Shown here: one piece after another, positions 1 through 12,994 of the stretch
Layout: each line of letters opens with the position of its first letter
Numbering within the stretch: the first letter of the stretch is position 1
Assembly: GCA_913061385.1 (NCBI GenBank)
Contig: CAJXTM010000021.1
Location: 1-12,994 of the forward strand
Length of the DNA: 12,994 bases
Reading direction: 5' to 3'
Source of the DNA: an uncultured Rhodopirellula sp.
Lineage (GTDB): Bacteria; Planctomycetota; Planctomycetia; Pirellulales; Pirellulaceae
The notes under the pieces: generated by a model
Told to the model about the DNA's origin: nothing
The model's input: only the letters and a program-made list of their open reading frames with translations
Databases searched by the model: none
Position numbers and translations under genes: made by a program

Positions 1-48
1 CGAGATCAGCCTCGGTCTCGTGGGCTCGGAGATGTGTATAAGAGACAG
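1..48 (+). other. Nextera library adapter (P7 tail, i7 index, Tn5 mosaic end)
   Basis: This is synthetic sequence. Bases 1-6 (CGAGAT) match the inner end of the Illumina P7 primer. Bases 7-14 (CAGCCTCG) match the reverse complement of Nextera i7 index N710. Bases 15-29 (GTCTCGTGGGCTCGG) are the Nextera read-2 segment, and bases 30-48 are the 19-base Tn5 mosaic end AGATGTGTATAAGAGACAG. Genomic sequence begins at 49. The segment has no stop codon in the gene's frame, so automatic annotation would wrongly add 16 residues to the protein. Confidence 0.98.
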
Positions 49-3000
49 GAGTCCATTCAGACCAGCACGAACCTTGCTCAAGTAGATGCCGGAGCCGTGG
101 TCACTGGTGGTGATTTGACCATTGATGCTAACGGAGAGACGCGACAGATTGTTGTTTCAGGTAGCGTTGTCGCCAGCGATGCTGTCGGAATTGGCTTGAG
201 CGGCGGCATTGTTGATTTGGACCGCAGTACAGGCGCATTCATTGGTGCCGCTCCTGAGGGCTGGACTGAACGCTACACGCTCAAGGTTACGGACGAAGGC
301 AGCCCTTCTGTTGGTGGGAACTTGGGGAGAGTCGAGGTCACTGGTATCGAAGTGACTGCCAACAGCACAGGCGAAGTTTACAACACTTCGATTGTGGGTG
401 TGACGCCAACTTTCCGACTCGCGAGTAATCCTGCCGGGGGAACTTTGAAAGACGGGGAAGGTGGCACTCAGTCCTCTTTCAAATTGGGTGAGGAAGGTGT
501 TGTGAAAGATGTTGAGAATGAATTTCACATCAATCTTGCTGGAGATGCTGCAGTCAATGTGATTCACGATGTGACGGAAAGTCAAATCGATGCTGCGGCA
601 TTCAGCTCAATTGCAGCTGTATCCAACACAGATCCGACGGGTGCGAATGTATCCGTGACGAGCGATAATGACACCATTTTCAGTGCAGCCTCCGGTGCCG
701 GTGCTATCACAAGTGGTAAGCGGGATGGTTCTGCAGCGGCGGTAGCAGGTTCAGCGGCAGTAAATATTGTGAACCAAACAACCCGAGCTTTGGTGACTGA
801 CACGTCCACTCCAGTGGCACTCGGTGAAACACCCAAGTTGTTGCGTGCTGATGGAGATATCACGATTCAGGCACAGGCTGGTGCACCATTCGATGACGGG
901 CTGGACGGGGGTGCTTCTATCTGGGCTGTCTCAGGATCACTGGGATATTCTGCATCGGGAGGCTTTACCAACACCGGGGCGTTGTCAGCGTCTTGGAACC
1001 AGTTGCTGGGTACGACAGTTGCGCAAGTTGACGAAATCGATCTTCACAGTGGTGCTTCGGGGCAAGCAAATACAGGTTCGCTGACAATCAAAGCGGTCAG
1101 TTATCACAAAATCACCGGGGATGGTGGAGCATTCGCCATAGCGCGGGAAAAACGCAGCGAAGAGGGAAGTGGTGCCGAAGCGATGGGCTTCGGTGGATCC
1201 TATGCTTACAACCAGCTTGATTACTCGGTCACTGCCCTGCTCTCCAGCGAAGTTCATGTGCAAGCGAATTCGCTGACGATTTCTGCCTTGGATGATTCTG
1301 AGATCACCAACATGACGATCGCGGGAGGTGTTGAAGAAGGAGCGAGTGAAGTTGCGCTTGCTATTTCTGCAGCCGGATCAACCAATCAAATTACCAGAAA
1401 GGTCAACGCTAAGATTGATCGAATCAATCAACAGTCTGGTCATTCATCCACTCAGGGAGTCATCGAGTTGGAAGGTGATTTGTCGGTCCAAGCGATCGAT
1501 AACGCTGAGATCACTGCCGTTAGTGGCGGGATAGCATTCTCTCTGGATACTAAATTAGAAGGAGCATTCAGCGGGAACTTTGGGGCGTCGTGGAGCACCA
1601 ACGAAATCACTGAGGACAGTGAGTTGCTTGCATCAGTCACAGGCGTCAGGATTGTAGATTCCGTTGGACTCGTGACCGTTGAAGCGCAGGAATCAGGAAG
1701 TATTGATTCGTGGTCCATCCAACTGGGTGTGTTGGGATCCTTAGGTGAAGGGGCCACGGTTAACGTTGCCGGTGCGATTGCATGGAATCGCATTTATGGC
1801 ACCGTAGCTGCTGAGTTGCGAAGTGCAACAGTTGAGCATGCTGCGGGGGTAACCGTTTCAGCAAATAGTACAAGGACGATTCACAGCGAAACCATCGATG
1901 CAACACTTTCACTCTCGCTCGCTGTGGCCAACGTGGGTGTGGGAATCAATGTAACTACGAATGAGATTGGTACACAGATACTGGCCAGTGTTTCCGATTC
2001 CATGTTATCAGCCATGGGGGAAATTAACGTTACAGCGAATTCAGCGGCCGCGATTGATTCGGTATCGGCAAACGCATCGTTGCAGGCGGCGGTTTCCGTC
2101 GATGGTGCGTCGGTGGGGATCAATTATATGGGGATTTGGTCTACCAATATCCTGCGACAGAAAGTGAATGCAGGTATCGATTCCAGCACTATCTCTGAGT
2201 CATCATCCATTAACGTACACGCGACTGACGGCCGTGATGAGTCTGGCGAGCAGCAAGGTATCAGAGCCAAAGGAGTCGGCGTTCAAGTGGTGTTCACCGT
2301 TTCAGAAGGCGCTGCTGTTGATGTTGGAGCTCTGACACAATTTGCCAGTAATGACATCGCAAATTCCGTCACAGCTTCGATTACCGGTTCCGAGGAAATT
2401 AACGCAACGGGAGCGATTTCTGTTGACGCTGAAAAGATGACCTCTGTCGAATCACAGCTCTATACAATCGCTATTGGGTTTGCGGGCAGTGGTGGGGTTA
2501 CGATCGATGTATCTGCAGCCACCACGGTGCTTCGTAATTCGATTTCCGACTCATCTGACGGGGACGCATCTCAAACCCACGCCTTGATTGACAATTCTGT
2601 TTTGAATGCCGGCTCAGTTCAGGTTCACGCGACTTCGACGCCGCTCATCTATGCCAAGATTTGGGATGTAGACATTCAGGTTGCCGCTTCAGGAGGTGTT
2701 AGCCTCGCTGCTGTTTACGGCGAAGCCAAGGTCATCACCGATGTGGCTGACGACGTTCACGCTGGCCTGTCGAATCATTCGCAAGTTCATGCGACAAGCG
2801 AAGCGGTCTCTGTACAGGCCATCATGGATCTTCCTGGGGTTGATGTCATGCCTAATGATGCGCCGGTCAGCAGTGTTTATGTTGACACCCACAGTGTTGG
2901 TGTGACGGCTTCGATTTCGCTCGACCTTGTGGCGGCCGCAGCGACGGTCCTGAGAAGTAAAATTGAGACCAACGCGGCAAGTCAAATTGTCGCCAGCATC

Positions 3001-3978
3001 GTTGAAAGTCAGGTTACAGCGGAACAGGGGGTCTCAGTCAAAAGCGACGATAAAACCACCATCTTCGGTAGCATTCGCGATACGGCGATTGCCGCTTCTG
3101 TTGTCGCCGCTGCTGCGACGGCACCGACTGCGAACCAATCGATCAAGAATGTCGTGGAATCTTCGATTGTCAGTTCAGGGAGTCAGGCAAAAACGATTCA
3201 GACGATGACGGGTGATTCAGACTTTGGTGATGTTCAGATCATTGCCAACGCCACTCCGCATTTGACTACCGAGGCTACCATCTGGTCCGGTACCATCGGG
3301 ATCGGGTCGGCAAGTAGTGATTCGCACACTACAAGCACGCTGGAAGGAACATTGACAGCGTTCATTGACGGGGGAACTGGTCCTGAGCAACTGACCGTTG
3401 ATGCGATGCACGGGAACGTTCAAGTAAAGGCGATATTTGATGGTACGAGTGACACCGTGGTTCATTCCGGTGCGGTTGGTCTGGATGTTGTGTCAGTCGA
3501 TACTGCACGCCCCACCTCGACCAACTCCCCGTATGTGGCAGCCACGGTAAAAGGAAAAGCCGATGTGAGTGCTGACAAATACTTCAATCTGGTTTCAAAC
3601 GCGGGTGGCCACGCCCGAGGAGAGAGTCGACAAACGACCGTTTCGCTTGGGTTCGCGGGCGGTGGGCTGACTTTGAATACCTATGCCAAACCAGTCGTCA
3701 ACGTTGTGGTGGGCGACCAGAATACTGAGGACGAGTTGCAAGTAAGCGACTGGCAGTCCTCGCTGGGAACCGAGGTAACTGGCAGGGAAGGTGTGTTGTT
3801 GTCTGCTACGTCAACCATCGATGCCAGTTCCGAAGCGACCATGAATGGTGGGTCGCTGTTAGCATCGGTGCTGGCACCGTCCAGTCATGCCGAGGTCAGT
3901 CCTGATATCAACGTTGAAGTTGGGCCTGAATCAATGGTGCGTTCTGCGCGAGGGGTTATCGAAATCGAAGCTTTCGGT
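49..3978 (+). repeat. Beta-strand repeat region 1 (LktA-type filamentous adhesin repeats)
   Basis: Degenerate protein repeats built around a strand of the form G-x-h-x-h-x-A, followed by an Ala/Gly/Ser-rich pair of strands and an 'N...V.A.I..S' strand. Core strands start near 109 (GDLTIDA), 343, 640, 853 (GDITIQA), 1075, 1267 (NSLTISA), 1474 (GDLSVQA), 1666, 1846, 2017 (GEINVTA), 2203, 2410, 2611, 2800, 3025, 3226, 3412, 3580, 3787 and 3949. The spacing from 853 to 3949 averages 64.5 codons (16 intervals, 54-75). This composition and pattern match proteins annotated as leukotoxin LktA family filamentous adhesins. In that family the repeats are thought to form an extended stalk; the 'leukotoxin' label does not imply toxicity here. 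Copies are too diverged to give visible DNA repeats. Confidence 0.8.
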
Positions 3979-6900
3979 GGCATTGATCAGGGACCGCGAC
4001 CAACCGAGTTCGATGCCAACAGAGGTGTCGATCCGCTTTTTGACACCATTGAATTTGAGGACTTGCACCGTTTGGAAACCGGAGACCTCGTTCGCTACCA
4101 GAACACCTCGGGAACTCCAAACGCGATTGACGGACTCGAAGACCAACGCGAATATCATGTGATTTGGCTTTCAGATAAAAAAGTCCAATTTGGCGAACAG
4201 ATCGACAGTAACCTGACCAATGTCGTTCTCGAGCAGGATCGTCTTAACTTTGGACGCAGCGCAGCTTTCGAAGGGCCGTTTGCCCTTGATCAGTGGAACC
4301 CGAATGATTGGGACGTGATCACTTATCAGCAGATCGGAGATGAACCGATCGGGGGTTTAAACGATGAGATGCAGTACTGGGTCAATCGGGTTGATGATGA
4401 TGAGGTGATGTTGTTGAGCTATACACCGAGTGATTTGCCAGTCGCACCAAAGGCAGTATCGGGTACCGATGTTGACGAGTCGAGTCAATTGCATCTACCC
4501 GGTCATGGATTTGTGGATGGACAGGCTGTTACTTACCGCTCGCAAGATCCAGTGATTCTTTCTGCAGGTGTCGTCAATGTGCAAGTTGCTGATGCAGATC
4601 CTGCGGTCGTTGACAATTCGGATGCTGTTGACTTGACTCCAGATAGCGCCGGTTCTTTGAGTCATACGATTTATTTGGCCGAGGATGTTGATCGCTTCAG
4701 TGATGCTGATGTTGTTGAGTACTGGGCGGATGCTGCTGATCAGCAGTGGTATTGGACCGAGGGGCCTGAGCCGCAGTCCGCTGATGACGATGACAGTGAC
4801 ACCAGCAGCAGTGACTTACACAGTCTTACGGGAAGCCAGTTCTGGAGCGGAGACAGTGGCGGAACAACGGTGTCCGATGCGTACGCGAGTTGGGATGCCA
4901 GTCAGCCAGATAACGCCAGCGGCAATGAGCATTTTGCGGTCATGCACAAGGATGGAACATGGCATGATGTGTCAGGTGATTCGCTCATTGATGCGTATGT
5001 CATCGAATATCCCCAATTCATCCTCCATGATGAATCCAAAAACTGGCATGATGCACGTTCGTTGGCGAAGGAGCTTGGTGGGTGGCTGCCCTCGATTTCA
5101 GATGATGATGAATTGCAGCGGGCGATCACCGCGGCAGCTGGTAACACGGTCTGGTTGGCAGGCTCTGACGATGATGATGAAGACACATGGATATGGGATG
5201 GAGGTGGAAAAGACCCGAATCATCATCTGCAATTCTGGCAGGGAGGAAAGAACGGATACTCCACGGGTAATTTTGAGATTCCTTGGAGCAGCGGCGAGCC
5301 GAATGACGGGGGCGGTGCCACCGCTGTGCGCAACAAGGAAACTGTTCTTGAAATGTATAGCTCCGGTGCGTGGAATGACGATGATGATGGGCACAAAAAC
5401 AAGAATCGGGTGCTTGTGGAAATGCCGAAGTATGGGGTGAGGACCTTGGCTTCGGGGAAGACATTTGCTGAGGCACGAGACGATGCCCGCGCGCATGGCG
5501 GTTGGATCGCGACGATTGGCTCGGATGCGGATAACGACACCGCAAAACAGCTCATCGCGGAGCACAATTTCAGCTCGGCGTGGATAGGTGCCTCAGACAG
5601 CCAGATTATCAAGGGCTTGGAAAATCATGGTCGATATGTACTGGAAATCAGCGATTCGACCGATCACCGCAACTCAGTGCAATTGTTTGAGTTAACCAGT
5701 TCAGGTGGTCGGGGTGATATCATCAATATCGATGCGACAGGACTGCCTTCATCGGTCAATCACTATCTGCTGCCTGTGAATGAATTGCCCATGGGAGGTT
5801 TGGCATCAGGGGTGACGTATTACGTGACGGATGCTTCAGCAGACCATTTCAGCTTGGCAGCAACCGCTGGAGAGTCTCAGAGTAAGAATGCTCTGGCTAA
5901 TTTGAACGGAAATGATGCCCTCGATCCCAATATGACTATTGGCGATGGCAGCTTCATTGGCACGATGGGAATTGACCTGACTGATGTTGGCGAAGGCTCG
6001 CACAATTTGCGATTTGATATCCAGGCCAAGTCAGTTGGAACGCAAAGTCTCCCCCTCGTCAAACTCGGGCACAGAACCAATCCTGATGGGACAGGAACTG
6101 CATCCAGTCACGTGCACAGTGCCGGTGGATCGTTGGTTGCACAGTCGATACGACCCCAGTCAACTAGCACTACCAATCCAAATGTCACCATCCTGCTCGC
6201 TGCTGGCAGTCATCTGCACGCGGCAGAAGACATTGATATGACGGCCTTGTCCGCGGGTAACGGAAAAGCAAAAGCAGAGGCCTATGGAGGGGCATTGCTT
6301 GCGGGAGGGTCAGGCGCGACGGTGTCATCTGTGGTTGATCACGCTGCACACGTCAACTTGTACGGCGATTTGACCGCAAACGGTAGCGTGACTGTGGAAT
6401 CGAAAATCAGTGATCAGGTTCAGACGCACGCGGATGCCAAGAGTTATGGCGCGATTGACGCCAACGCGCTGTCCAATGCGACGATCAAGGAGTCATTCGA
6501 TTCATGGATCGACATCGGTAACGGTGCAAGAATTCTGGCAGGCGAGGAAATTGAGATCAACGCTTACTCAGATTTAATTGATCAGATGACGGCTACGACC
6601 CATTCAGGTGCGATGTTTGGGAGCTCGAAAGCAAATCAGACGGAGGGCTCTGGGATCCAAATCAAAGCCTCGGGTGATAACCCCAATCGGACCGGGATCA
6701 CTGTCAATGACTCAGACCTTGTGGCTGGCCAAGCGGTCATTCTGCATGCAAAAATGTTGGGTGTAGATACCTCGCCAGCGCATGCAACCGACGAAATCGT
6801 ACAGGCTTTCGGCGGAGGTATGCAAAATGCCAATCAGGCGACCGCGGAGATTAACCTTCAAGATGCTGTCACGGTCGAGTTGTTGGATGATGTAAGAATC

Positions 6901-9900
6901 ACGAGTCGGAACGTCGAGATTCTAGCCTTGCATGAAAACGTGGATCTGTACACCAAGGCACACACACGACGCGGGCGTGCCGCTTCACGCGCTGAAGCAA
7001 AGATTGATTATGACGGGAACTCCAGTGTGACAAGCACCTCGGGGACAACAATTCATGCTGATACACTCACGGTGGAAGCACGACAGGAAATCGTTCGCGG
7101 TGACTTTGATCCTGTTGCGACAACTGATCGAGGTTCATCGAATGAAACTTCTTCCCATTCATTGGTTGCTGATCGACAGATCAATTGGAATGCTACCGTT
7201 TTGGGCCGAGGAAAAGCTGAGCTGGAGGTCGATGCCAGCGGGATCGTGAAGACGGCTGATGGTGTCGTGCTCAATGGTGGCACAGTCCAAGAGGGTGATC
7301 GCTATACAACGGGGCAGTCAATCGTTGTTGACGAGGTTAATTATGATTTCACGGAGCAATTGTCGCAATTTAAGGTCAATGCTTTGGACGAAATCGGAGG
7401 AACCGCCGAGGTCACCGGTGATGCACTCTTTTACGCACAGGTGCACGCGGATTTGAAAAGTCACGCCCCCAATGAATTGCAGTTACCCGATATCGATCTC
7501 GCAGATTTCGATATCGATAATTCACTCACTGAAAAGACCTTCTGGTCGGGCGCCGCGGACGGAAGTGTGGTGGATGGTCACTATTCGAATTGGGCTGCCA
7601 GTGAGCCAAACAACTACAACGGCTCTGAAAATCACGTTGAACTGTATTCGAGTGGCGTCTGGAACGACATCAGCGGCGACGTTAAACGGAGTTATGTATT
7701 GGAGACGGACCGCGGGTTCGAATTGATTGCCGGTGAATTTACGTTTGCCGAAGCGGTGCAGGATGCAACAAACCGCCATGGGCAGGTTGCTTCAATCGCG
7801 ACAGCTGCTGAAAACGATGAAATCTGGAATCTTTCTGGCGGCGATGTCTGGATCAACGCAACCGATGAAGGGCATGAAGGAGACTGGCGACGTCCGGAGC
7901 GTGCAAGTGTTGTGCTGATCGATGCACCTGACGAGGCTCTTAATATTCGTCGTCATCCAGACTCGGATGATTTGGTTCATGGGCGGCTCATCGTTGCCAA
8001 CCTTGGGCAGAACGAAAGTGGAGCCTCGAGCGATGGATTCCCGATCAAGTTGAATGGCAATATTCACAATCCGGGTGGCTTGGTCGAAATCCGAAATTTA
8101 TCAGGTGATATCCAAGCTCGGGTGGCGGGTGAACGCTCGGTGATTGATGCTCACGAATTGATTCTTGACGCACCTTTGGGGTCGATTCACAGCGAGTCAC
8201 AAACCAACCGAATTCTCGCTCGATTGCACCAGGCCGGGCGAATTACACCAAGTATGTCAGCGGTAGCTGAGAATGACTTGGTATTGGATGTGCAGGCACA
8301 GCCCGATGAGTCGGGCCGTGTGCGTGGTGTCGATCGATTGGAAGGAAATACGGTGGACGTCGGGTTGATGGCCTGGGGTGAATCCATTCGCCAGCAGGGC
8401 CCAGCAGGTTATTGGCAATTGAATGAATTGTCTGGGCAATCGGCTGTCGAAGCACTTGGAACCGGCATGCAGGGAAGTTCTTACGGTGTAAGCCCAGGAC
8501 AGTCCGGTGCGATACTGAGTCAACCCGATAACAAAGCAGTCAGGTTCTCTGGTGGTTCAAGCGCAGATCGCATCGTGATTGATGATGATGCACGACTGTA
8601 CGGCGGTACCACGCAAACTGTGACAGGTTGGCTGAAAGTCAATTCCTTTGATAAACCTTGGCAATCCGTTTACTGGAAGGGGGACACCCCCGATTGCACG
8701 GCTGGGTGTGCGAACCGTGAAAATACTTTATGGCTCGCTCAGAACCAATCGCTGTATTTTACCGCTGCACCTCAGGGTAGTGCCGCAGAGGTTGCCCATT
8801 ATGTGACATCCACCATTCAACCGGGAACCTGGTATCACTTCGCTTCGGTCCTTGATGCTGACAATGATGTGATGAAGGTGTTTGTGAATGGAGAGCAGAA
8901 GTTATCCGAAAGTTTCTCCGCCAGTGCGATTCAAGATACTGACGGTGATTGGTACTTGGGGAACAAACCAGGTGGTGGAACGTCGCTTAATGGTTGGTTG
9001 GATGAATTTGCAATTTTCAATCACGTGCTGACCGGTGATCAAATCAAACAACAGTATCTGGCTGGTATTGCCACCACCGCTGTGGAGGTGGATAGCCATT
9101 ACGTGATCAATGGATTTGCCGGAGGAAACCATATGGAATCGCGGCATCGTGAGATTCGTTCCGAAGGTGATTTGACACTTCGCGGATTGGGAGTTGATGG
9201 TCTTGATGCCGACACGAATGGCGCGAAAGTCAACATCGAAGCAAGTGTCGAAATTGGAGATCTGCATGATGGCGTTGTGAACGTGACAACCAATGGAGAT
9301 ATCTGGTTATCTGAAGGAGTTGATCGTCAGATTATCAGATACGACGGTGCTTACACTTTCGCTGAGGCGTTTGCCGATGCCTCGGTAAATGGTCGACGCT
9401 TGATGACCATTCATGACAGCGACGAGCAACGGTTGGCAGAGATTGCGGTTGCTGGAAAATCAGCCTGGTTTGGTGCCACCGATGTGAAGAACTCAGATGA
9501 GTGGAATTGGATCGACGGCCGATTGATTGATACCACATTCTGGGTTGGTAATGACCATCATGGTGTCACTGTAGAAGGCAGGTACGAAAACTGGGCGACT
9601 GAAGCGGGAGCTCCCGGTGACTCAGTGCAGCGGACAGCGCCTAACAATGCTTTTCGAAATGAAAACTACCTGATGATGCAGTCGGATGGGTATTGGGACG
9701 ATGTTGATGATGTTCACGCGTTGCCGTACGTGCTGGAAACCCCGTACACCCACGAACTGATTGATGGAAGCTTCAGCTTCGCCGAGGCTTGGTTGGATGC
9801 TTATCAACGAGGCGGTTGGATTGCCACACTGGATACAGCCGAAGAACAAAGTCGTGTTGTTTCGATGGCTGCGGGCAGGCCCATTTGGTTGGGGGCCTCA

Positions 9901-12900
9901 GATGCAGAGGTCGAATCCGTGTGGAAGTGGATCGAACCTGCGTTCAGGGAAAAACAATTCTGGCAGGGAAACAGCACAGGACAGGCGGTGGATGGATCAT
10001 TCATCAACTGGAATACACCGACTGGTGAGCCCAATGATTATGGTGGTCAGGAGTACTTCGGTGAATTCGAAGCAAGTGGAGGCTGGAACGATCTATCCGA
10101 AGAATCAACTCGTGGTTATCTAGCGAGCAGCGAAATTACCAAACTGAGCTCACAGTCCATGCGAGTCGGGAACATCACATCGCTAACTGGTGATGTGTAT
10201 CTCGACGCACCTGTGAATCTCGAGGTCTCAGGGAAAATCGCAACTGGGCAGGGGAAGAAATTTGTTTGGAATGGGGATGGTCAAATCCTTCATGCTGATC
10301 CAGGCAATACTTCGCCCACCATCGTGACCGAAGAGATTTATCTGGCGTCAATTGGAGGGCTTGGTCGACAAGACTATCCGCTGACGACGACCACAAACAT
10401 GATTCGTGGTGACTTTCCGACCGGTGCAATCAACATCGAAAACACGGCCGACCTATCACTTACTGATCTCATCGTGCATGACGAGAACCTGCTTGTGATC
10501 TCGGAGGGGACCATTGCGGTGGATGGTCCCTTACGAGTCGAAGGTGGTGGGAACTTGAGTTTGATCGCTAACGGTGAGAATACGGCCTATGAGTACGTTC
10601 CGCATTCCATGACTTACCCAGAGGCGGTTGTGGATGCTGAGCACCGTAACGGTGTACTTGCGACTGTAAGAACATCATCCGAACAAGAGCAGGTGCGAAA
10701 TGCCGCCGGGGGTCAGACAGTTTGGTTTGGTGCCTCGGATGAAGCGGTGGAAGGTGATTGGGTATGGAATGCATTGCATGACGGATCGGAATCATTTTGG
10801 GCCGCTCCGGTTAATTTTTGGACCGGCGTTGCCTCGGGTGAATTGGCTCTTGGTGCCTACGCGAATTGGAATGCTGGCGAGCCCAATAATTACGGGAGTG
10901 GCGAGAATCACGCGGAGATGATTGGTAGTGGGAAATGGAATGACCTGCACAAAGATAATCTACGCCAATATGTGCTCGAAAAACGAGATGGCACGCTCGA
11001 GTTTGTCAGTGGTACCTATACATATGACAGTGCTGTTGTTGATGCCAATAATCGAGGTGGGCGAATTGCGAGTATTCGGTCTCAGGCCGATCAAGACCGC
11101 GTTGCATCACTTGCGCAGGGGCGTTCTATCTGGATCAATGCAACCGATGAAAATCACGAGGGGCAGTGGTATTACAACACGCCTAGTCAACAAGTGGGTG
11201 ACCTTTTTCATTATTGGGCAGGTGGTCAACCGGATGACTATTTGGATGCCGAAGATGCAGGTCAGATGCTGTCCGATGGGCGTTGGAACGACCAGCGAGG
11301 TTGGGATTGGGAAAAGACGATTGTTGATCAGAACCCGGCAGGTCATTGGCGATTGAATGAAGCGTCAGGGACCACCGCGTACGAGCAAAGCAGTTCCCTT
11401 GGTAAACAAAGTATCAATGGAGTACTGGAACCGGATGATCATGCGGCAGGGAACTCACTGCTCAGCGTCGGTTCCGGGGTGACAGTGACTGCAGTTGGAA
11501 CGAATGTCCGTAGCGGCTCAGTTGTGTCATTCACCAATAACTTTCAATCAACCGGTGCTAGTGGATTTGGAGTCAATGGTAACTACTATTGGTCATCTAT
11601 TTCACAGTTGGCCTTGCGGGCTGACTTTGATTCTCCGGTGAATGAGGTCAAAATTGATTTCATTGCTGATGACAGTTCTGACTACGGAATCCTGCAGGCC
11701 TACGACTCCAGTAACACTCTGCTCGCTGAGTACACCACAGCGAATCTGGGTACGTATGCTTACGAAACAATGCGGGTGAACCGAACTCAAGGTGATATCG
11801 CTTATGTGCTTGCCTCAGGCCTGAACGGTCAAACCGGAGGCTTGGATAATTTGCGGTATGCAACGGATCCAATAGGTAATGACGGATCGTATCTGGGCGT
11901 CAGTTTGGGGCATGCAGGTGCAATGACGAGCGTTTCTGATCAAGAGAATAAGTCGATCAGCCTTGCGGGTACCCCGATCGCAAGTCATGTGCAGATTCAC
12001 GATGATGCGAGTCTGTATGGTGATATGGCACAGAGCGTCAGTGGTTGGTTCAAAGTGGATTCGTTTGACAAGGCTTGGCAAGCGATTTATTTCAAGGGTG
12101 ATCAGGGCGGCGGAGCAACCGATTACAGCAACGGCGGATTGAATCGCGAAAATGTCCTTTGGGTGAATGACACGGGTTACCTGCACTTCAATGTCGCGTT
12201 AACTGGCGGGGTACAACAGGAAGCTATCAATTCGCCAGTGAATGCGATTCAGGCTGGTCGTTGGTATCACTTTGCAACGACGTTTGACGCGAGCACGACA
12301 AGGGCCAAAATCTATCTCGATGGCAAGCTTGTTTCTGAAGCAGCGACATCGAGTGGTACACCACTGCGTGATACTGATGGGGATTGGCTACTTGGTAACA
12401 GTCCATCTGGGCAATCCAAGTTCAATGGGGCAATCGATGACTTTGCAATCTTCAACCATGCTCTGTCTGCCGAGCAAATACATCGGCAGTATCATGCTGG
12501 ACAGAGTCAGAGATTGCCATATGTCTTAGAATATGATGCCAGCCTGATCGTTCGCGCTCCAGTCAGAACCACGGGAGGTGATGGAAACATTAACTTGGTT
12601 GGTAGTGGAAGCGTGCGGATTGAAAAGGAGTTGCAATACGTTGATGGCGATGTGAATTACACAGAAGCCCGGCAGGATGCTTTGGATCAAGGCGGTTGGT
12701 TGGCCGTCTTGCACAATGATATCACTGCTGAGGATGCGAGACAGACCATTGATTCGAATTCAGCTTTGGTTGGCGGATTTGATGAAGGTGATGATGGGAA
12801 CTGGCGTTGGAGGGATTCACCCGTTGTCAGTGAAGAGATTACTTTCTGGGAAGGAAATCAGACTCGAAACGGTCTTGTGCAGCACTGGCAAACAGGCGAA

Positions 12901-12971
12901 CCCAATGGTGGAACCAGTGAGAATATTGTTGAGGTTGAAAGTAACGGAAACTGGAATGATCTCTCCAGTAG
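49..12971 (+). CDS. Giant multidomain adhesin-like protein (LktA-type strand repeats, C-type lectin and LamG domains), partial at both ends
   Basis: Codon-by-codon reading from 49 gives 4,307 complete codons with no stop. The same domain families are in frame at both ends, so no frameshift is apparent. Order by residue of this fragment: strand repeats 1-1310; IGGL/YYV-type repeats about 1332-1565 and 1889-1945, flanking a C-type-lectin block 1565-1867; second strand-repeat region 1945-2493; split CTLD pair 2493-2618; haemagglutinin-like stretch to 2784; LamG 2784-3007; CTLDs 3092-3363 and 3513-4162, with a LamG inserted at 3762-4152; last CTLD from 4196. Only two Cys codons occur. No catalytic motif, membrane segment or signal peptide is visible. 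Such proteins are normally secreted and are thought to mediate adhesion or polysaccharide binding; that role is inferred from the domains. Start, stop, operon context and regulation lie outside the window. The architecture is most like giant planctomycete proteins. Confidence 0.96.
4042..4740 (+). repeat. Short GDxVxY / IGGL / YYV-type repeats, four degenerate copies
   Basis: Four related units are visible. Unit 1 (about 4042-4197) has TGDLVRYQN, then IDGL and EYHVIWL. Unit 2 (about 4279-4425) has DWDVITYQQ, then IGGLNDEMQYWV. Unit 3 (about 4480-4560) has LPGHGFVDGQAVTYRS but lacks the IGGL/YYV half. Unit 4 (about 4660-4740) has TIYLAEDVDRFSDADVVEY and stops where lectin-like sequence begins. 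A further, better-preserved unit lies at 5713-5880. I recall this motif from giant adhesin-like proteins where it sits between strand-repeat blocks. No function is known to me. Units 3 and 4 look truncated. Confidence 0.6.
4741..5010 (+). other. CTLD a: C-terminal half only, QPD motif
   Basis: It begins at a WYW motif (4747-4755), which aligns with the WxW strand of the complete CTLDs. It then has FWSG, ASWDASQPDN and WHD, and ends in the strand AYVIEY. The QPD tripeptide (4903-4911) stands where other copies have EPN. In animal C-type lectins QPD is associated with galactose-type binding and EPN with mannose-type binding. The later WND motif is WHD here (4960-4968), which may weaken calcium coordination. 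The N-terminal half of the fold is absent. An Asp run (4783-4800) sits in the long-loop region. Confidence 0.75.
5011..5424 (+). other. CTLD b: complete C-type-lectin-like domain, EPN motif
   Basis: Complete by pattern. The N-terminal half has NWHDARSLAKELGGWLPSIS and VWLAGSD, followed by WIW. The long loop has FWQGG and SGEPNDGG (EPN at 5296-5304), and the end has AWNDDDD (WND at 5371-5379) and VLVEM. Both calcium/sugar-binding tripeptides are intact, so ligand binding is plausible. The disulphide cysteines of animal CTLDs are missing, as in every copy here. It is unusually acidic, with Asp-rich runs at 5101-5112, 5167-5184 and 5377-5388. Confidence 0.88.
5425..5646 (+). other. CTLD c: N-terminal half plus last strand, binding loop missing
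   Basis: The N-terminal half is well preserved: KTFAEARDDARAHGGWIATI, then AWIGASD at 5578-5598. The frame then jumps within about 15 residues to RYVLE (5632-5646), which matches the last CTLD strand of other copies. The WxW strand, the long loop with EPN/QPD and the WND motif are all missing, so no canonical sugar site remains. This is probably an internal deletion or recombination remnant; reading frame is kept. Confidence 0.8.
5713..5880 (+). repeat. IGGL/YYV-type repeat, fifth copy
   Basis: The unit runs from DIINIDATGLPSS to HFSLAATAGESQ, with MGGLASGVTYYVTD in the middle. It is the clearest copy of the short repeat also present at 4042-4740, now on the far side of the lectin block 4741-5646. 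This places that block between, or within, members of the short-repeat family. Function unknown. Confidence 0.6.
5881..7524 (+). repeat. Beta-strand repeat region 2 (LktA-type)
   Basis: The strand pattern of region 1 returns. Core strands start near 6226 (EDIDMTA), 6382 (GSVTVES), 6544 (EEIEINA), 6730 (QAVILHA), 6907 (RNVEILA) and 7060 (DTLTVEA), a mean spacing of about 56 codons, shorter than in region 1. Between them are Ala/Gly/Ser-rich stretches such as AYGGALLAGGSGATVSS. The start (5881-6180) and end (7080-7524) are less regular, and the end runs into an Asp/Leu-rich linker (LPDIDLADFDID) before lectin sequence begins. A stalk role like that of region 1 is inferred. Confidence 0.75.
7525..7707 (+). 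other. CTLD d: C-terminal half only, EPN motif
   Basis: It contains TFWSGAADG, YSNWAASEPNNYNGSENH, VWND and RSYVLET. EPN (7603-7611) and WND (7660-7668) are intact, but there is no N-terminal half: the preceding residues belong to the strand-repeat region. From YSNW to YVLE it is about 24 of 41 residues identical to CTLD h, its closest relative in the window. It may pair with the N-terminal half that follows directly (CTLD e). Confidence 0.82.
7708..7899 (+). other. CTLD e: N-terminal half only
   Basis: It contains FTFAEAVQDATNRHGQVASI, AENDE and VWINATDEGHEGDW, ending at the W of the WxW strand (7885-7887). The sequence then passes into haemagglutinin-like strands, with no long loop, EPN or WND. 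Its closest relative is CTLD i, which has WINATDENHEGQW at the same place. With CTLD d it gives the order C-half then N-half, the reverse of a normal domain. Confidence 0.8.
7900..8397 (+). other. Filamentous-haemagglutinin-like beta-strand stretch
   Basis: It includes GFPIKLNGNIHNPGGLVEI, then RNLSGDIQA, then a strand reading LILDAPLGSIHSES. This 'NPGG.V.I.N..G.I.A' and 'L.APLGSI' pattern is typical of beta-helical haemagglutinin-type adhesin sequence. It differs from the roughly 64-residue repeats of region 1. It links the half-CTLD pair to the first LamG domain. No ligand site can be recognised. Confidence 0.55.
8398..9066 (+). other. LamG/concanavalin A-like domain 1
   Basis: It opens with GPAGYWQLNELSG and continues with NKAVRFSGG, QTVTGWLKV, GTWYHFASVLD, MKVFVNGEQ and LDEFAIFNHVLTGDQI, the usual succession of strands in bacterial LamG/laminin-G-3 jelly-roll domains, which commonly bind carbohydrate. 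A DTDGDW segment (8938-8955) could bind calcium. The loop at 8680-8712 holds the only two cysteines in the fragment (8695-8697 and 8707-8709). No nested insert is present, in contrast to LamG domain 2. Confidence 0.88.
9067..9321 (+). other. Beta-strand linker between LamG 1 and CTLD f
   Basis: About 85 residues with strand-like segments (REIRSEGDLTLRGLG, AKVNIEASVEIGD, VVNVTTNGDIWLSEG) resembling short pieces of the beta-helical repeat. It leads directly into CTLD f. I do not recognise a separate domain. Confidence 0.5.
9322..9744 (+). other. CTLD f: complete fold, degenerate binding motifs (APN, WDD)
   Basis: The fold signature is present: YTFAEAFADA, AWFGATD, WNWIDG, FWVGND, ENW, NENYLMM and LPYVLET. 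The EPN position reads APN (9637-9645) and WND reads WDD (9694-9702). The segment between the NW motif and APN is 14 residues (9595-9636) against about three in CTLD h. Loss of the motif's Glu suggests that it no longer binds sugar in the canonical way, or binds something else. Confidence 0.85.
9745..10134 (+). other. CTLD g: complete C-type-lectin-like domain, EPN motif
   Basis: It follows CTLD f without a linker. Motifs in order: FSFAEAWLDAYQRGGWIATL, IWLGASD, WKW, FWQGN, INWNTPTGEPND (EPN 10027-10035), GWND (WND 10084-10092) and a last strand GYLASSE in place of YVLE. Both calcium/sugar tripeptides are intact, so it is one of the best candidates for an active lectin head. No disulphide cysteines. 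Confidence 0.9.
10135..10584 (+). other. Beta-strand (solenoid-like) spacer between CTLD pairs
   Basis: It contains GNITSLTGDVYLDAPVNLEV, then IYLASIGGLGRQDYPL, GAINIENTADLSLTDL and GGNLSLIANGEN. This resembles haemagglutinin-type or LktA-type strands, including the 'IG....PL' turn common in such proteins. CTLD h begins directly after the last strand. The spacer separates the f-g lectin pair from the h-i pair. Confidence 0.55.
10585..10983 (+). other. CTLD h: complete C-type-lectin-like domain, EPN motif
   Basis: Motifs in order: MTYPEAVVDAEHRNGVLATV, VWFGASD, EGDWVW, an extended loop with two FW pairs (10795-10800 and 10816-10821), ANWNAGEPNN (EPN 10879-10887), KWND (10933-10944) and RQYVLEK. 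The binding motifs are canonical. It pairs with CTLD i, and its C-terminal half is the closest match to half-domain d. Confidence 0.9.
11332..12501 (+). other. LamG/concanavalin A-like domain 2, with an internal insert
   Basis: It opens with NPAGHWRLNEASG and resumes after an insert with GSYLGVSLGHAGAM, QSVSGWFKVDSFDKAWQAIY, AGRWYHFATTFD, AKIYLDGKL, RDTDGDWLLGN and IDDFAIFNHALSAEQI. From the DTDGDW segment to the domain end it matches LamG 1 at about 27 of 45 residues. The Cys-containing loop of LamG 1 is replaced here by a Gly/Asn-rich loop without Cys. Carbohydrate binding is the likely role. Confidence 0.86.
11416..11874 (+). other. Beta-rich domain inserted in LamG 2
   Basis: About 150 residues separate the first LamG strand from the rest of that domain. 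They include VSFTNNFQSTGASGFGVNG, then FDSPVNEVKIDFIADDSSDY, LQAYDSSNTLLAEY, GDIAYVLASG and LDNLRYA. LamG 1 has no counterpart. The DSSD/AYD/DIAY/LDNL pattern recalls a beta-sandwich module seen in other large extracellular bacterial proteins, but I cannot name the family with confidence. It ends at the LamG motif GSYLGVSLG. Confidence 0.65.
12532..12633 (+). other. Short beta-strand linker before CTLD j
   Basis: About 34 residues (ASLIVRAPVRTTGGDGNINL and then GSGSVRIEK) of strand-like sequence resembling the haemagglutinin-type spacers. They join the last strand of CTLD i to CTLD j. Confidence 0.5.
12634..12971 (+). other. CTLD j: C-type-lectin-like domain, EPN motif, cut by window end
   Basis: Motifs in order: VNYTEARQDALDQGGWLAVL, LVGGFDEG, NWRW, FWEGN, QHWQTGEPNGG (EPN 12898-12906) and GNWND (WND 12952-12960). 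The sequence ends at the tagmentation point before the last strand. Binding motifs are canonical. Its presence shows that the protein and its lectin array continue beyond the window. Confidence 0.9.
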
Positions 12972-12994
12972 CTGTCTCTTATACACATCTGACG
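12972..12994 (-). other. Nextera library adapter (Tn5 mosaic end, read-1 side)
   Basis: Bases 12972-12990 (CTGTCTCTTATACACATCT) are the reverse complement of the Tn5 mosaic end. The last four bases, GACG, begin the read-1 Nextera adapter. Genomic sequence ends at 12971. With the adapter at 1-48, this shows that both ends of the window are tagmentation points and not biological boundaries. Confidence 0.98.

Follow-up and report, generated by a model that had tools for sequence, protein, structure and literature searches.

A C-type-lectin-like domain probably interrupted by a LamG domain that itself carries a small beta-rich module in a giant planctomycete protein

The DNA analysed here (the window) is a 12,994-nucleotide stretch from an uncultured Rhodopirellula sp. 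(assembly GCA_913061385.1, contig CAJXTM010000021.1) that encodes a fragment of a giant protein. One segment of this protein probably represents a two-level nested domain insertion (A1-B1-C-B2-A2) with both host folds closing around their inserts. The outer host is a C-type-lectin-like domain (CTLD i), the inner host is a LamG domain (LamG 2), and the innermost element is a small beta-rich module. The parts follow one another along the gene in this order, with a second LamG domain upstream serving for comparison:

10993..11301 (+): CTLD i, N-terminal part, with first strand, two helices, long loop, WND, then QRG
11227-11235, 11251-11253 and 11284-11292 (+): CTLD i motifs QPD, E (in DAED) and WND
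11302..11427 (+): LamG 2, N-terminal part, WDWEKTIVDQNPAGHWRLNEASG...SINGVL
11425..11859 (+): inner module, LEPDDH...LDNLRY, beta-rich, nested in LamG 2, assigned by profile match
11860..12501 (+): LamG 2, C-terminal part
12511..12531 (+): RLPYVLE, directly after LamG 2, predicted closing strand of CTLD i
12532..12960 (+): downstream flank, linker YDASLIVRAP..GGDGNINLVGSGSVRIE, then CTLD j up to its WND
8407..9066 (+): LamG 1, uninterrupted comparison copy

The N-terminal part of CTLD i alone scores 39.3 bits against the Pfam profile Lectin_C (PF00059), above the cut-off of 22.6; in the Pfam scan, Lectin_C covers residues 3673-3765 of the window protein. We take its QPD, E and WND motifs to be calcium ligands. 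The domain stops three residues after WND, where LamG begins. A preliminary description of the window, made from the sequence alone, had reported all CTLD motifs up to WND and no last strand at that place, and both observations held: the motifs lie at the positions given above, and no strand motif occurs 8-9 residues on. Among 46 WND-like places in the window and the proteins P0002-P0007, 31 have the strand motif [YFW][VLIA][LVIA][EQGS], always 8 or 9 residues past WND; these 31 places are not independent, since the window, P0002 and P0003 share sites and the two uninterrupted orthologs are counted too. CTLD i is among the remaining 15, which include CTLDs with a last strand that merely misfits the motif. 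The eight WND-like places listed for the window have upstream EPN (five), QPD (two) or APN (one), and at the CTLD i site QPD is also present in P0002-P0005 and G016, with EPN in P0006. LamG 2 matches the Laminin_G_3 profile (PF13385) with 98.7 bits in the 535-residue piece (cut-off 27.6), and the Pfam match covers residues 3995-4161.

The site was recognised in seven sequences by the shared downstream flank, which is 45-94% identical between the window and the six others, and it occurs in three states. The CTLD is uninterrupted in P0005 and P0006 (the empty state), with 7 residues from WND to PYVLE. This distance is 250 residues in P0004 and G016, which have LamG only, and 408 residues in the window, P0002 and P0003, which have LamG and the module. 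L009 is one more full copy, and the 535-residue arrangement is also present in G005/PKCN01000361 (91%), G010/NZGD01000103 (81%) and P0002 (90%). The spacing of 250 versus 408 residues demonstrates that LamG 2 is genuinely interrupted. The preliminary description had estimated this interruption at about 150 residues; the module has about 145 residues and is absent from LamG 1 and from LamG 2 of P0004 and G016. The proposal of two successive in-frame insertions is likewise borne out by the three states that occur among orthologs sharing the downstream flank. An unrooted tree of the flank gives 100% support each to the full-nest group and the LamG-only pair, and 64% to the joining of the two empty sequences. 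Since CTLDs with a recognised last strand are uninterrupted here and the other aligned LamG domains have no module, the simplest reading is that an empty site first gained LamG and then the module. No exact 7-mer is common to the compared border stretches of either insert, and thus there is no sign of target-site duplication at these borders.

The RLPYVLE string does lie directly after LamG 2 (12511-12531), as the preliminary description had stated, and several comparisons point to it as the closing strand of CTLD i. LPYVLEYD directly follows WND in the uninterrupted ortholog P0005, and PYVLEYD, PYVLGYD, PYLLGYD or PFVVEYS is found at the strand place in all seven compared sequences, these strings having also served as search strings for locating the site. 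A profile was built from 12 uninterrupted CTLDs, with the window and all copies of the CTLD i site excluded; two of its rows belong to a different protein of G010, whose genome has the full nest, and L096, L103 and L104 contribute the CTLD that neighbours the site in orthologous proteins. Against this profile, CTLD i up to WNDQRG scored 92.6 bits. As a control for chance, each 13-mer of the protein was appended in turn to CTLD i (ending WNDQRG) and scored. The 13-mer QSQRLPYVLEYDA at residue 4168 was the best of 555 downstream 13-mers (starts 3765-4319) with 103.0 bits, and the highest score among the 534 lying outside 4160-4180 was 98.3 bits. Among all 4319 13-mers it was sixth, the five higher ones being frames of three genuine CTLD last strands. 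A rise of the Pfam score from 34.3 bits (535-residue piece) to 41.0 bits (joined parts) was dropped as support for the strand, since the N-terminal part alone gives 39.3 bits.

Several findings weigh against closure of the two host folds. The Lectin_C score gains only 1.7 bits (39.3 to 41.0) on joining the strand segment, and the alignment ends three residues past the junction, short of RLPYVLE. In four uninterrupted CTLDs the Lectin_C match likewise ends at profile position 96-104 of 107, so the short match is no evidence either way. CTLD i has no cysteines and is therefore without the disulfides of animal CTLDs, and the ratio of nonsynonymous to synonymous substitution rates (dN/dS) of the inner module is 0.37 relative to L009. 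In P0005 (residues 3612-4010), an independent LamG stands directly after the WDD of another CTLD, the last strand of which is not restored; this LamG seems to replace that strand together with the N-terminal half of the next CTLD. The AlphaFold2 models also belong here in part. In model 1, intended as the less biased structural test, the single-CTLD alignment rows ended at WND, and RLPYVLE and the N-terminal part of LamG 2 are below 50 in predicted local distance difference test (pLDDT); the construct also held the last strand of the preceding CTLD, a possible competitor. The alignment of model 2 was chosen from 150 random subsets by correct placement of the LamG N-terminal part, the module and the CTLD last strands. 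This model is a consistency test and not an independent one, because its alignment was selected for last strands on RLPYVLE. When different alignment compositions were compared, the CTLD rows placed their last strands there in 12 of 12 cases in two compositions and in 0 of 12 in three others, which either had no LamG-only rows or included module rows. The mean pLDDT of model 2 is 64.7 and its predicted template modelling score 0.52, with pLDDT below 50 over much of the LamG N-terminal part, for much of the module's first third and in part of the long loop of the CTLD.

The model 1 alignment was chosen from 140 random subsets by MAFFT rows landing in their own domain zone, after four earlier alignments with misplaced rows, and in this model the inner module forms a block with pLDDT 80-93 (residues 161-310). 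In model 2, PYVLEYD forms a strand (509-515, block pLDDT 66 and 81), the first CTLD strand is at 2-10, and the LamG N-terminal part has a low-confidence helix (106-113) and strand (118-120). Solved sandwiches align to model 2 from residue 105-115 to 505-511, across the module (50/50 listed rows), these ranges giving the first and last aligned residues only. A fold comparison indicates a pentraxin- and CBM40-like fold for LamG; its matches fall on the LamG part, with little comparison of the inner module or the CTLD to solved structures. Matches to the jelly-roll in receptor-binding domains of clostridial toxins were taken as a common sandwich fold, with no functional claim. Thus, the structure prediction suggested in the preliminary description gave a PYVLEYD strand and sandwiches aligned across the module in model 2, whereas model 1 left RLPYVLE unplaced. 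CTLD i closed by a strand before 11332, with RLPYVLE in the linker or in LamG, was not seen. The idea that both host folds are kept is supported by the best closing strand in the profile test, purifying selection and model 2, but is not proven.

The same sequence could in principle be read differently. CTLD i might be a truncated, non-folding remnant that LamG merely follows, with RLPYVLE as a stray fragment or linker, and the protein does contain half a CTLD elsewhere (from near residue 2573, without its C-terminal half); the last strand lost at the other LamG junction of P0005 and the unplaced RLPYVLE of model 1 point the same way. We regard this as unlikely, given that RLPYVLE occupies the last-strand place of the uninterrupted ortholog, that a PYVLEYD-type string is found there in 7/7 sequences, and that the CTLD part has a dN/dS of 0.09 relative to L009 and 0.13 relative to L010, the latter ratio being rough as dS to L010 is about 1. 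Purifying selection was observed on the larger segments, those with enough changes to judge. In favour of an assembly chimera as the origin of the nested layout are the translations of the contig ends, which we take to be adapter-like, and the fragmentation of the draft genome (1197 contigs). A chimera is practically refuted by the same arrangement in G005, G010 and P0002 and by the unbroken frame.

A little less improbable than the remnant reading, but still doubtful, is that the insertions are real and the LamG sandwich fails to close around the module. The LamG N-terminal part would then be linker sequence without structure, and the module would sit like a bead on a string. The low pLDDT of this part (below 50 in model 1, mostly low in model 2) fits such an arrangement, as does the Laminin_G_3 match, which begins after the module even with the flanks joined. 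However, other LamG domains (L011, L012, L013, L002 and L016) have a contiguous YWRL-type segment at the N-terminus with which the LamG N-terminal part can be aligned, and the solved sandwiches align to model 2 from before the module to beyond it. Closure of both hosts, with RLPYVLE returning as the last CTLD strand, would accommodate these data best.

In the nested interpretation, an in-frame insertion would have placed a LamG (concanavalin-A-like) domain within CTLD i, at a point three residues past WND and ahead of the last strand, in what we assume to be the beta4-beta5 turn. Later, a small beta-rich module would have entered the N-terminal loop of LamG 2. The three domains would then form one head on short double tethers, with LamG tied a few residues from WND and the module carried on a LamG loop. 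Compared with domains on a string, a double tether may hold the sites more firmly in position relative to one another, and would keep LamG near the CTLD site for combined binding. As judged from the CTLD motif and the LamG fold, the head probably binds polysaccharides, with the QPD-type motif of CTLD i presumably marking a galactose-like calcium site.

The inner module belongs to a family (A6) of about 150 residues. Searches with 22 members revealed no convincing match in Pfam (best E 0.0033, one member; no family matching more than three members) or in NCBIfam (best E 0.022, one member), and a sequence search found no solved relative of the inner module (best E 0.76). Among 199 genomes sampled from the same bacterial family, 159 have the module; of 294 genomes in a phylum-wide sample, eight have it, and four of these eight belong to that family. 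We compiled 64 distinct copies from loci returned by searches and 20 regions chosen for large hosts; many of them are orthologs of one protein type of about 900 residues. Hosts were assigned by eye from the flanks, and Pfam was run on the joined flanks for 18 hosts and the window LamG. By eye, 59 copies lie within or at the edge of another domain, four are standalone and one is partial. The 59 include 42 at one SdrD_B-type position (with a tandem pair in L021), seven at a second SdrD_B-type position, eight in or beside PPC, and two in LamG. With the module removed and the flanks joined, the SdrD_B-type match spans the junction above the cut-off in 11/14 cases and below it in two, with no span in one. 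The PPC-type joined flanks match PPC only downstream of the junction in 3/4 cases and not at all in the fourth. PPC is thus a weak candidate host, at the domain edge, and we assume that the strands preceding the junction belong to the PPC fold.

Within L021 (1525-2400), two module copies stand in tandem inside one SdrD_B domain. L041, L042 and L046 are standalone module proteins (open frames of 223-247 residues) with a signal-like N-terminus and a PEP-CTERM-like end, as judged by eye. A protein database contains 106 short module proteins (94-276 residues, in a search permitting only lengths near that of the module), 28 of them with PF07589 (PEP-CTERM); standalone copies are not rare overall. 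We tentatively propose, at somewhat less than even confidence, that the module is an undescribed, mobile-like family that spreads in this bacterial family chiefly by landing in loops of extracellular domains (SdrD_B at two points, the PPC N-terminal edge, LamG, one tandem pair) and stands alone elsewhere in small PEP-CTERM-like proteins.

The window has a single open frame (frame 1, 1 to 12993; 4331 residues) that is open at both ends, and lies in a 5.7 Mb draft genome. The related proteins P0002 (7044 residues) and P0003 (7050 residues) have LEPRHLL near the N-terminus, and Lectin_C, dockerin and Laminin_G_3 are among the Pfam domains precomputed for them. Their size, this motif and the domain content indicate that the window encodes a fragment of a giant, probably surface-exposed protein, and the host is probably a secreted giant of a Pirellulaceae-like planctomycete. 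Relatives with named records come from Planctomycetaceae, Rhodopirellula and Rubripirellula assemblies. The contig ends (window 1-48 and 12970-12993) translate to RDQPRSRGLGDVYKRQ and SCLLYTSD, which to our eye resemble adapter-derived assembly artefacts. At the 3' place of the window end P0002 has WNDLSSSAVRNGYLLQLPSVHSQGLG, so the final window residues are probably not natural. Upstream, a CTLD N-terminal half (FELIAGEFTFAEA...EGDWRRPE; window 7717-8406, residues 2573-2802) joins other sequence directly, with no C-terminal half before LamG 1. Other CTLDs are split between the W-rich strand and the NW..GEPN loop (L097:986-1450, L098:887-1351, L101:924-1388) by a piece resembling an inter-domain linker (ESLVVGA...GG.GDILLSG in L097 and L098); they represent a further type of interrupted CTLD within the protein family.

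Nested insertions of the A1-B1-C-B2-A2 type, in which inserts interrupt their hosts without preventing folding, have already been described (Schaeffer et al. 2026, PMC13114784), and that survey reports six-level nesting for a cyanobacterial RNA polymerase and inserted domains consistently smaller than their hosts (median 115 versus 199 residues). In contrast, the host CTLD of about 115 residues is far smaller here than its insert of about 400. The words lectin and concanavalin do not occur in the main text of PMC13114784, and passages of PMC12237041 deal with a different CTLD. No description of this CTLD/LamG/module arrangement came up in searches of an open-access library. CTLD i resembles PF00059 domains in its profile match above the cut-off, its QPD/E and WND motifs and its uninterrupted ortholog, but is interrupted between WND and the last strand and has no cysteines. 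Similarly, LamG 2 is like PF13385 domains in its match far above the cut-off and its modelled fold, but sits inside a CTLD and is itself interrupted in the N-terminal loop. The SdrD_B-type domains of other planctomycete proteins also have the same module nested inside another domain, but with a different host and insertion point and one nesting level. Thus, nesting itself is known; new here are the CTLD/LamG/module trio, a host of about 115 residues around an insert of about 400, surviving intermediates and an unnamed module.

As a rule, nested domains are met only in their final form, whereas here the intermediates survive. Because empty, one-level and two-level versions coexist in related genomes, the insertion order can be tested directly, as can how well a small fold tolerates an insert more than three times its size. 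The module, unnamed in Pfam and NCBIfam, recurs in other domains and offers a natural series on good inserts and acceptor loops. If its proposed spread is real, then together with the LamG-in-CTLD event it would mean that the surface giants of planctomycetes build binding heads by recursive insertion, besides end-to-end domain addition.
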